Source: Thermoplasmata archaeon (lineage in GTDB: Archaea > Thermoplasmatota > Thermoplasmata > Thermoplasmatales > Thermoplasmataceae). Taken from it: a DNA stretch of 11,172 bases. Location: contig JAKAAU010000025.1 of NCBI GenBank assembly GCA_021802165.1, forward strand, positions 1 to 11,172, in the 5' to 3' direction. A program made the position numbers and the translations under genes. The notes under the pieces were generated by a model. That model saw only the letters and a program-made list of their open reading frames with translations. It did not search any database and was not told the origin of the DNA. Shown here in pieces: positions 2,521 through 5,829 of the stretch; position 1 is the first letter of the stretch, and each line of letters starts with the position of its first letter.

Positions 2521-2925
2521 TTATAAATTATTCAATGATTTAACCATTTTAACGCAGCTTTCCAGGGCTTCCTTTGCCATGTCTATTCTGGCTTCAGCCT
2601 GCAACCTGGATTCCCCAGGGCCGGATATGCCTAAAGCAACAGGCTTCTCATATTCTAATGATAAATCAGTTATTTTTCTTGCTGCATTTTCCATTATTAT
2701 TCTATGGTGGTCTGTTTCCCCTTTTATCACAGCACCTATTGCTATTATACCATCTATATCGTCAATTTTTAACAATTTTTTAATTCCTAAGGGTATATCA
2801 AAAGTTCCAGGTACTTTAAGTATTTTATACTCAATACCCAGAAAATCTGCATAATCTTTAGCTCTCTCCACCATCATCATTGTTATATCATAATTAAATT
2901 CTGCAACTACCATTCCTATTTTCAT
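2521..2925 (-). CDS. ribH: 6,7-dimethyl-8-ribityllumazine synthase (RibH)
   Basis: It condenses 5-amino-6-ribitylaminouracil with 3,4-dihydroxy-2-butanone 4-phosphate to give 6,7-dimethyl-8-ribityllumazine, the next-to-last step of riboflavin synthesis. The 134-residue protein matches archaeal RibH along its whole length. It has AEFNYDIT (8-15) for the substrate pyrimidine, VPGTFDIP (38-45), GAVIKGETDHH (64-74) with the catalytic-region His, and GISGPGESRLQA (99-110), where the Arg fits the phosphate-binding position. It is the last gene of the cluster. Nine bases separate it from ribC, and a Shine-Dalgarno sequence GGTGAT overlaps the ribC stop five bases before the ATG, which fixes the start. 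RibH normally forms a 60-mer or pentamer in the cytoplasm. Confidence 0.96.
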   Translation of the reverse strand: MKIGMVVAEFNYDITMMMVERAKDYADFLGIEYKILKVPGTFDIPLGIKKLLKIDDIDGIIAIGAVIKGETDHHRIIMENAARKITDLSLEYEKPVALGISGPGESRLQAEARIDMAKEALESCVKMVKSLNNL

Positions 2926-2934
2926 TTATATCAC

Positions 2935-4130
<1,196 letters not shown>

Positions 4131-4150: not shown

Positions 4151-4169
4151 ATACTTATAAATGAGTTGA
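4151..4169. promoter_or_regulatory. candidate operator overlapping the ribB promoter
   Basis: ATACTTATAAATGAGTTGA contains the interrupted palindrome ACTTAT-AA-ATGAGT (five of six pairs) and shares ATGAGTT plus the spaced TAC-TA letters with the palindrome at 4783-4801. It covers the minus-strand TATA box of ribB, as expected for a repressor site. The archaeal riboflavin regulator RbkR (kinase-HTH fusion) is the obvious candidate, but I do not recall its operator in this group. Confidence 0.35.
4155..4162 (-). promoter_or_regulatory. TATA box for ribB-ribC-ribH
   Basis: On the minus strand this reads TTTATAAG. It is centred about 28 nt before the ATG at 4130, consistent with a leaderless transcript starting at that codon. 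It lies in the 44-nt gap between arfC and ribB, so ribB may be transcribed both from here and by read-through from arfC. Confidence 0.5.
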
Positions 4170-4174
4170 TAATT

Positions 4175-4744
4175 TTAAAAGTTATTAATATCTTTAATAT
4201 TCAATAATAAACCATCACCTTCCATGGATATTTTATAATTTAATTTCATTTCTTCTTTAAACAACGGTATCCCATCTAATATTAAACCAGGATTTATAAA
4301 TATATAAAATTCATCAAATATTTTTTTATCTATAAATTGATTTATAACATTGGAACCTCCTTCTACCAATATGCTTTTTATCCCCATATCATATAGTTTT
4401 TTTAATATACTGGGTATTGATAAATCATCTAAAATTATCATTTCCGCATTTTTTATTTTCTTATTATTTCTTGAAAATATATACGATTTTATTTTTCCAT
4501 CGAAAACATTGTAATTATCGTTTAATCTTAATTTTTCATCTAAAATTATCCTATTCTTTGCATAATTCAAAACCGGATTATCTACCTTTACGCTGTTAGC
4601 CCCCAGTAAAACGCCATCAACATTTTTCCTTATTTCCATTACCCTGTTGATGTCAATATCATTTGAAATCCTGTATCTCCCATTTATAGCAGATATTTTA
4701 CCATTTATCGACATTGCAACGTTTATTATAATATATGGAATCAT
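4175..4744 (-). CDS. arfC: 2,5-diamino-6-ribosylamino-4(3H)-pyrimidinone 5'-phosphate reductase (ArfC, RibD C-terminal family)
   Basis: It reduces the ribosyl side chain of the early riboflavin intermediate to ribityl with NAD(P)H, the reductase step that archaea carry out before deamination. The 189-residue protein matches the RibD C-terminal/MJ0671 family: MSINGKIS (11-18), VDGVLLGANSVKVDNPVL (42-59), the nucleotide-binding ILVEGGSNVINQFI (125-138) and FINPGLILDG (149-158). It is shorter than most archaeal homologues (about 215-225), mainly in the middle. No deaminase zinc motif (HAE, PCxxC) is present, so it has only reductase activity. It is the first gene of the minus-strand cluster and shares its upstream region with the divergent amidohydrolase. 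Codon use is strongly A+T-biased compared with ribC. Confidence 0.9.
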   Translation of the reverse strand: MIPYIIINVAMSINGKISAINGRYRISNDIDINRVMEIRKNVDGVLLGANSVKVDNPVLNYAKNRIILDEKLRLNDNYNVFDGKIKSYIFSRNNKKIKNAEMIILDDLSIPSILKKLYDMGIKSILVEGGSNVINQFIDKKIFDEFYIFINPGLILDGIPLFKEEMKLNYKISMEGDGLLLNIKDINNF

Positions 4745-4761: not shown

Positions 4762-4770
4762 TAATATAAC
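4762..4770 (-). promoter_or_regulatory. possible TATA box for arfC
   Basis: The minus strand reads GTTATATTA, centred about 22 nt before the arfC ATG at 4744, the spacing expected for a leaderless mRNA. Confidence 0.4.
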
Positions 4771-4782
4771 AATTTTGAGATA

Positions 4783-4801
4783 TTACCTAATTATGAGTTA
4801 A
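4783..4801. promoter_or_regulatory. imperfect palindrome between arfC and the amidohydrolase gene, candidate operator
   Basis: TTACCTAATTATGAGTTAA is a 19-bp imperfect palindrome centred on 4792, with seven of nine pairs matching. It lies between the divergent TATA boxes, 3 nt before that of the amidohydrolase gene. The right half ATGAGTT recurs at the ribB promoter (4161-4167). This would suit joint control of both sides by one regulator, possibly RbkR. Confidence 0.4.
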
Positions 4802-4804
4802 ACT

Positions 4805-4812
4805 TTTATAAT
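4805..4812 (+). promoter_or_regulatory. TATA box for the amidohydrolase gene
   Basis: TTTATAAT is centred about 23 nt before the ATG at 4831, the leaderless spacing seen for several genes in this window. Confidence 0.5.
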
Positions 4813-4830
4813 ATATCTCTATTATAAAAA

Positions 4831-5829
4831 ATGGAATTTTCAGGCAATATATATTATAATGGAAAGTTGCGAAGAGGCACATTAAAAGTAGATGACACCG
4901 GTGAATCATTCAGTAATAAAACCGGAAATACGAACCATGGCACATTAATTCCAATGCCTGTAAATGCCCATACACATGTAGGTGATTCATTTATAAACGA
5001 AGAGCCGAAGGGCACATTGCCTGAAATCGTGGGTCCTGATGGCTTAAAGCATAGATTTTTAGATAATGCTGATGATAATGAAGTAATAAATTATATATCA
5101 AAAACCAACAATTTTATGGAGAAAAATGGAACAATATCATATTTTGATTTCCGGGAAAATGGGTTGAAGGGAATAAATATGATAAAAAGAGGAAATAAAA
5201 AGTTTATAAAACCCGTAATATTTGCAAGGCCTTACAATAACGATGATATAAATAAGATAATAGACAATTCTAATGGAGTGGGTATAAGTTCAATCTCAGA
5301 CATGGATTATGATGATATCTACGACGTCAGCATTAAAACCCATAAAAAAAATAAAATATTTGCTTTGCATTTCAGTGAAAATATAAATGAAGATATAGAT
5401 AAGGTTATGAATTTGAAGCCTGATTTATTAATACACGGAATAGAAGCAAATGATACTGATCTAGATATAATAGGTAAAAATAATGTAAGTATTGTAATAA
5501 CACCCAGGTCAAATATATTCTATGGCAAAAGGCCAGATTACAATAAATTCTTGAAGCATAATATAAATTTAATGCTGGGAACTGATAATGTCTTTGTCAC
5601 AGAGCCGGATATATTCTCGGAAATGGATTTTTTGTACAGGTATCAAAGATTTTTAAATTATGTAAGCCCTGAAAATATTTTAAAAATGGTTATAGATAAT
5701 CCATATACCTTTCTTAAAAAAAATAATATAAAAATTAAGAAGAGATACCTATTTTTCAAAAATGAATTGTTGAATGAATACCAGCTCGTAACAAAAAAAC
5801 ATTATTTTAACCCGGTAAAAATTTTATAA
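4831..5829 (+). CDS. amidohydrolase-superfamily protein of the cytosine/adenosine deaminase branch; candidate riboflavin-pathway deaminase
   Basis: This 332-residue metal-dependent hydrolase has a TIM-barrel core and only small flanking beta regions. All expected ligands of the deaminase branch are visible in order: NAHTH (45-49, His47 and His49), LHFSE (179-183, metal His180 and proton-shuttling Glu183), LIHGIE (200-205, His202), ITPRSN (223-228) and LGTDN (249-253, Asp252), then EPDIFSEM. The H-x-x-E and PRSN motifs are typical of deaminases acting on cytosine, guanine, S-adenosylhomocysteine and related rings. It is shorter than most of those (about 400-450). It is divergent from arfC and may share its regulation. 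Archaeal riboflavin synthesis needs a deaminase after ArfC and has no RibD deaminase domain, so that role is my leading inference. Salvage deamination of another purine or pyrimidine, or deformylation, is also possible. Very A+T-rich codons, like arfC. Confidence 0.85.
   Translation: MEFSGNIYYNGKLRRGTLKVDDTGESFSNKTGNTNHGTLIPMPVNAHTHVGDSFINEEPKGTLPEIVGPDGLKHRFLDNADDNEVINYISKTNNFMEKNGTISYFDFRENGLKGINMIKRGNKKFIKPVIFARPYNNDDINKIIDNSNGVGISSISDMDYDDIYDVSIKTHKKNKIFALHFSENINEDIDKVMNLKPDLLIHGIEANDTDLDIIGKNNVSIVITPRSNIFYGKRPDYNKFLKHNINLMLGTDNVFVTEPDIFSEMDFLYRYQRFLNYVSPENILKMVIDNPYTFLKKNNIKIKKRYLFFKNELLNEYQLVTKKHYFNPVKIL

Follow-up and report, generated by a model that had tools for sequence, protein, structure and literature searches.

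A divergent amidohydrolase encoded beside arfC as the predicted deaminase of archaeal riboflavin synthesis

An 11,172-nucleotide stretch of DNA from a Thermoplasmata archaeon (assembly GCA_021802165.1, contig JAKAAU010000025.1; here, the window) carries a set of riboflavin genes next to a gene for an amidohydrolase, referred to below as the candidate. The candidate is divergent from arfC, with 86 bp between arfC and the candidate start, and arfC is followed on its own strand by ribB, ribC, and ribH (Table 1). The source is Ferroplasma-like: the encoded protein is 95% identical to one from F. acidarmanus Fer1, and the nearest genome compared (G001) has 84% of sampled words in common with the window. 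A sequence-only reading of the window had named the four riboflavin genes, and NCBIfam and Pfam models bear this out, for arfC through Pfam RibD_C, which is above its cutoff; with TIGR01508, arfC reaches 105 bits (2.5e-30), under the cutoff of 186. Bacterial-type RibD carries its own deaminase, and the RibD or cytidine-deaminase fold is marked by the zinc motif (H/C)-x-E ... P-C-x-x-C. As that reading also stated, the window has no such motif, judging from a simple pattern search across its six frames, and none of the seven window proteins scanned has a Pfam cytidine-deaminase match. To our knowledge, the deamination that follows ArfC is one of the last remaining steps on the archaeal route to vitamin B2 (and F420) for which the accessible literature offers no proven enzyme. 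We consider it very likely that the candidate is the predicted deaminase of the ArfC route, on the basis of its sequence family, predicted fold, co-occurrence with ArfC, exclusion by RibD, gene order, shared operator-like site, and family-specific residues.

Table 1. Features of the window that bear on the candidate
Feature	Position	Strand	Details
ribH, lumazine synthase	2521-2925	-	TIGR00114, 140 bits, over cutoff
ribC, archaeal riboflavin synthase	2935-3423	-	TIGR01506, 190 bits, over cutoff
ribB	3420-4130	-	TIGR00506, 198 bits, over cutoff
Operator-like site TACTTATAAATGAGTT	4152-4167		Before ribB
arfC, diaminopyrimidine-nucleotide reductase	4175-4744	-	RibD C-terminal type without deaminase domain; PF01872, 6.9e-29
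TATAACAATTTTGAGAT block	4765-4781		arfC side; near-identical in nine aligned intergenic regions
Operator-like site TACCTAATTATGAGTT	4784-4799		Between arfC and candidate; similar in Ferroplasma-group relatives
TATA-like stretch CTTTTATAATATAT	4803-4816	+	15-28 bases upstream of candidate start codon
Candidate amidohydrolase, proposed riboflavin-pathway deaminase (ArfC route)	4831-5829	+	ATG start, 332 amino acids

The amidohydrolase superfamily is recognized by an H-x-H motif, two more histidines, a catalytic glutamate, and a C-terminal aspartate on a TIM barrel. The candidate has the putative metal ligands H47, H49, H180-x-x-E183, H202, and D252, together with P225-R-S-N228, all where the sequence-only reading had put them in the open reading frame (ORF), that is, a deaminase-type amidohydrolase metal site. 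Its sole Pfam match, Amidohydro_1, is sub-threshold (23.2 bits; 25 needed), and its best NCBIfam model is NF005552 (PRK07213, "chlorohydrolase"), at 189.1 bits (1.1e-55). Eight other NCBIfam models match it at 17 to 29 bits against cutoffs of 320 to 617; for example, it does not reach the equivalogs for guanine deaminase (17.4 versus 375.4 bits) or aminofutalosine deaminase (26 versus 320 bits), and the models for 5'-deoxyadenosine deaminase and for S-adenosylhomocysteine/methylthioadenosine deaminase are not among its NCBIfam matches. These scores bear on the idea that the candidate is a salvage deaminase (acting on a purine, S-adenosylhomocysteine, 5'-deoxyadenosine, or guanine) that adjoins arfC by chance. 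Such enzymes share its fold, and its structural neighbors include guanine deaminases, AtzA, and TM0936, which we take to be an S-adenosylhomocysteine deaminase; one source also names the F. acidarmanus homolog N-ethylammeline chlorohydrolase. However, G001 has a separate paralog (L002) that fits PRK06380 at 624 bits, over its cutoff, and a salvage role leaves unexplained why the candidate is present with ArfC and absent with RibD, as described below. A clear match to a characterized salvage deaminase, which the sequence-only reading had held would count against its proposal, was not found in the NCBIfam scores. On these family scores we rejected a salvage assignment, and we regard a chance neighborhood as highly unlikely. 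The analysis gave no support to the name chlorohydrolase carried by PRK07213.

Co-occurrence was examined in 117 Thermoplasmatota genomes, each at least 85% complete and drawn from a larger group, with the profiles PRK07213, TIGR01508 (ArfC), and TIGR00326 (RibD) and a family profile, A1, made from a 32-row alignment all of whose rows PRK07213 matches. A1 splits the genomes cleanly: 81 score at least 117 bits (in one of them, G104, the gene is a fragment truncated at the edge of its contig), and the other 36 score no more than 57 bits. ArfC-type matches occur in 108 genomes, of which 27 are RibD genomes, leaving 81 with a stand-alone ArfC, while RibD exceeds its cutoff in 28 genomes, in three of them (G055, G108, and G113) as fragments. 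By A1, the candidate is present in 80 of the 81 stand-alone-ArfC genomes and in none of the 28 RibD genomes, and no genome among the 117 has it together with RibD. Within one phylum, then, the candidate occurs with ArfC and not with RibD, which is the co-occurrence of orthologs that the sequence-only reading had pointed to as a check. PRK07213 gives a similar picture at 122 bits or more, where it finds 76 genomes, 75 with ArfC, none with RibD over the cutoff, and one (G094) with neither; its 294-bit cutoff is exceeded in a single genome of the 117. Seven genomes have neither the candidate nor ArfC nor RibD. In three of these (G040, G077, and G080), which belong to one genus, presumably Thermoplasma, ribB was also not found and the candidate is absent from all three; the other four (G036, G041, G049, and G070) have ribB and could be incomplete genomes or rely on another solution. 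G040, G077, and G080, for which the searches gave no ribB, arfC, or candidate, nevertheless keep genes for GTP cyclohydrolase II and a CTP-dependent riboflavin kinase domain.

The same genomes speak to a second alternative, in which the riboflavin step falls to a stand-alone protein of the cytidine-deaminase fold (dCMP-deaminase-like, PF00383) and the amidohydrolase has a different function. Indeed, 27 of the 29 genomes tested have a PF00383 match, among them all five of the Ferroplasma genus. However, PF00383 is kept in G040, G077, and G080, which are without arfC and ribB; it also occurs outside RibD in the five RibD genomes tested; and G002 and G009, which carry the candidate as well as ArfC, gave no match, nor did the M. 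jannaschii and S. acidocaldarius controls. Across the 29 genomes its presence does not track ArfC, and we rejected this protein as a very improbable bearer of the step.

Gene order links the candidate to the riboflavin pathway in one family. The candidate adjoins arfC in six of the eight Ferroplasma-type family (f1) genomes that have it (G001, G050, G085, G097, G114, and G037), and at loci L007, L008, L090 (G097), and L094 (G037) the genes ribB, ribC, and ribH come after it in the same orientation, with a gap of 20 to 42 bases ahead of ribB. Riboflavin genes stand beside it at six of the 80 genome loci fetched, all in the Ferroplasma-type family, and at six of seven named loci, at least three of which (L003, L004, and L006) are probably the same DNA as G050, G085, and G114. 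Neighboring ORFs numbered 213, with 23 genomes skipped, and 10 were named. A gene for a four-CBS-domain protein adjoins the candidate at L056, L082, and L098, followed at L056 by glycyl-tRNA synthetase, and ORFs of the size of the four-CBS-domain gene recur, unnamed, at other loci.

The arfC, ribB, and candidate genes also share a putative operator. The sequence TACYTAWWWATGAGTT occurs twice in the window, before ribB and between arfC and the candidate, where 0.01 occurrences are expected at one mismatch or fewer; the shared operator-like sequence of the sequence-only reading is therefore real. Exact matches to the site pattern, which was built on both sites of the window plus those on the arfC side in relatives, number two per genome in G001, G050, and G114 and zero in G085; all six lie either in the arfC/candidate intergenic region or before ribB, and in G114 the ribB site is on a different contig from the arfC/candidate site. 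Since the pattern was drawn from these sites, the independent evidence consists of the absence of further exact sites and the G114 ribB site. The TATA-like CTTTTATAATATAT is likely the promoter of the candidate, and the TATAACAATTTTGAGAT block is possibly that of arfC. A common codon bias of the candidate and arfC holds loosely: G+C content at third codon positions is 0.28 for the candidate, 0.23 for arfC, and 0.28 for ribH, the three lowest values among 12 window genes measured. The sites suggest that the Ferroplasma candidate is probably coregulated with arfC and ribB, perhaps by a flavin-linked RbkR that would bind the shared site. A G001 gene encodes a CTP-dependent riboflavin kinase domain preceded by weak, sub-threshold helix-turn-helix matches, as is expected of RbkR, and each of the 14 genomes tested from the order has the kinase domain.

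Conserved residues set the family apart and extend it beyond Thermoplasmatota. Relative to paralogs, the family-specific residues are D52, K73, R108, E109, and N253, with R133 also listed among the family residues of the candidate. We defined a PRK07213-like archaeal signature, D52, K73, D106-F-R-E109, and N253, near the metal ligands, all of which the candidate has. K73 occurs in 80 of 80 orthologs and in none of 15 paralogs (those recognized by the seed profile and aligned out of 21 loci taken), and in alignment A2, K73, D52, and N253 are present in all 11 family rows and DFRE is exact in nine. Further relatives come from three protein searches with 449, 640, and 1073 hits, of which the listings cover the best 120 each. 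Scanned proteins over the PRK07213 cutoff, six of six among the matches listed, come from Methanothermococcus okinawensis (P0338, 561 bits), a Methanobacterium, a Methanosarcinales metagenome-assembled genome, two Nitrososphaeria, and a Bathyarchaeota. P0338, from the Methanococcales, aligns to the candidate at 31%; it has the K73/D52/N253 signature, as do three plasmid-borne relatives from Halobacteria (L295 to L297), which score 246 to 270 bits with PRK07213, below 294. These haloarchaeal members (L295 at NC_002608.1 198414-199433) lie on megaplasmids, and the annotation shows no riboflavin gene up to 4 kb from any of the three. Two further proteins, L054 (G010) and P0126, are nearer the PRK07213 core and keep K73 but have EFSN or an EFSN-like sequence instead of DFRE; judging from these residues, they are possibly a subgroup with altered specificity.

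We propose that the candidate is a metal-dependent hydrolytic deaminase of the amidohydrolase fold that works with ArfC. It would convert the 2-amino group of 2,5-diamino-6-ribitylamino-4(3H)-pyrimidinone 5'-phosphate, or of the ribosyl form if the order of steps is reversed, into a carbonyl, yielding 5-amino-6-ribitylamino-uracil 5'-phosphate and ammonia. The ring of this substrate is the isocytosine ring, and enzymes of the amidohydrolase superfamily are known to deaminate isocytosine. One of them, Vcz (PDB 7ww2 and 8is4), is 10 to 13% identical to the candidate and acts on the free base, not on a sugar phosphate. Water would be activated by a metal held on H47, H49, H180, and D252, with H202 and E183 assisting as acid/base, while D52, K73, R108, E109, R133, and N253 probably recognize the diaminopyrimidine and hold the 5'-phosphate. 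The candidate would take the place of the deaminase portion of bacterial RibD without being homologous to it; the RibD domain, with which it is proposed to share chemistry and pathway, has the cytidine-deaminase fold and differs in family and zinc motif. We infer the substrate, mechanism, and residue roles, as well as the operon and promoter status and the identity of the regulator. GTP cyclohydrolase III (PF05165) was found in none of 19 genomes tested and GTP cyclohydrolase II (PF00925) in 13 of them, Ferroplasma-type genomes included, which suggests that the Ferroplasma substrate probably comes from cyclohydrolase II. Neither cyclohydrolase was found in G028, G094, G047, G103, G057, and G020, in all of which the candidate is present.

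The phylogenetic profile and the shared site place the candidate with ArfC and do not specify the step, so that both would also suit another flavin or deazaflavin (F420) reaction tied to ArfC, for example, the removal of damaged intermediates. However, what RibD supplies and ArfC does not is the deamination, RibD genomes are without exactly the candidate, and the ligand set is of the hydrolytic-deaminase type. A role other than deamination is scarcely probable.

Several observations weigh against the deaminase assignment. The enzymatic function is a prediction, and the putative phosphate site is deduced from conservation only. The candidate falls below the curated PRK07213 cutoff (189.1 versus 294 bits) and by that cutoff is a divergent relative of the family, not a member. 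At an E value of 0.001, PRK07213 matches 114 of the 117 genomes, mostly weakly and through paralogs, and by itself it separates imperfectly, since five A1-positive genomes score under 103 bits, as some paralogs do; for A1, 20 of the 32 rows came from PRK07213 hits in these same genomes. G067 has ArfC without the candidate, although a congener (G079) and another member of its family (G004) have it, and G094 has the candidate with no arfC found. Linkage to arfC is missing in G074 and G109 of the Ferroplasma-type family, and no relatives of arfC, ribB, ribC, or ribH were seen at the other 74 of the 80 loci, up to about 6 kb on each side, by a phmmer scan with the window proteins on greedily called ORFs that may miss divergent or miscalled genes and covered several short contigs. 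Clustering with riboflavin genes, a check proposed by the sequence-only reading, therefore holds in part, for most of the Ferroplasma-type family, and was not seen elsewhere. Also, the operator pattern at one mismatch is no commoner than its reversed control (3, 2, 2, and 2 matches versus 4, 4, 7, and 6 in G001, G050, G085, and G114, respectively), and because it is unspecific, we used exact sites alone.

Kinship among the genomes limits the co-occurrence too. On a tree of initiation factor 2-gamma from 110 of the 117 genomes (leaving out G041, G072, G075, G078, G081, G086, and G089), 26 of the 28 RibD genomes fall in one clade, which also includes three genomes lacking both genes; the remaining two, G008 and G016, are placed separately. 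Each trait needs at least five changes on this tree, three of them forced by well-supported branches. From this topology, the exclusion comes down to about three replacements, each going the way expected, and one joint loss; RibD displaced the candidate on only about three branches. Kinship-corrected independent pairs number three on the best tree and one on well-supported branches, so few that no significance is attainable, and the kinship-corrected test is too weak as proof.

Elsewhere in the window, two similar palindrome-like stretches, seen by eye at 699-720 and 1053-1075, bound about 350 bp directly before a sulfur-transport gene (1068-2195, PF04143) whose start is apparently displaced. 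A repeat finder did not list the palindrome-like stretches and gave no support to reading 690-1075 as a mobile element.

Part of this proposal has a precedent. The accessible text of PMC8305020, from 2021, leaves three gaps in haloarchaeal riboflavin synthesis and offers candidates for two, HVO_1235 being that for arfB. Its Table 6 credits the prediction of HVO_2483 (34% to MJ0699) to Rodionova et al. 2017 and sets this gene in a row that separates arfC from the EC 3.1.3.104 step, itself still a gap, and the main text names no function for it; by elimination, that place in the table points to the deaminase step. The view of the sequence-only reading that no enzyme is firmly assigned thus holds in that none is proven in the accessible literature, but HVO_2483/MJ0699 had already been predicted. 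A 2026 review (PMC13028884) has archaea reduce first and deaminate second, and neither its relevant passages nor those of PMC12051542, PMC12855090, PMC10746257, and PMC11665356 name an archaeal deaminase. We found no experimental work on the archaeal deamination step in the literature accessible to us, and we do not claim its absence from print. MJ0699 and HVO_2483 apparently fill the same pathway gap as the candidate and may belong to its family; the NF005552 profile has matches in the M. jannaschii and H. volcanii controls, among ten. The copy described here differs in being linked to arfC and ribB. The core idea therefore appears not to be new, a prediction for relatives being already in print in the sources as far as they are accessible. 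In the literature accessible to us we did not see that the candidate and RibD exclude each other, nor the family signature or the Ferroplasma operon and site evidence, though Rodionova 2017 may contain part of this.

The sequence-only reading was right in the main, and its case is stronger than its author could know; we judge its proposal supported. More broadly, we think it likely that a pan-archaeal amidohydrolase family, marked by D52, K73, mostly DFRE, and N253 and unrelated to the RibD deaminase, performs the post-ArfC step of riboflavin and F420 synthesis, that RibD and the candidate are alternatives that displace each other in Thermoplasmatota, and that in Ferroplasma the gene belongs to a flavin regulon. 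If so, archaea would use another protein fold than bacteria for this deamination, and the labels chlorohydrolase and N-ethylammeline chlorohydrolase now attached to such genes would have to change.
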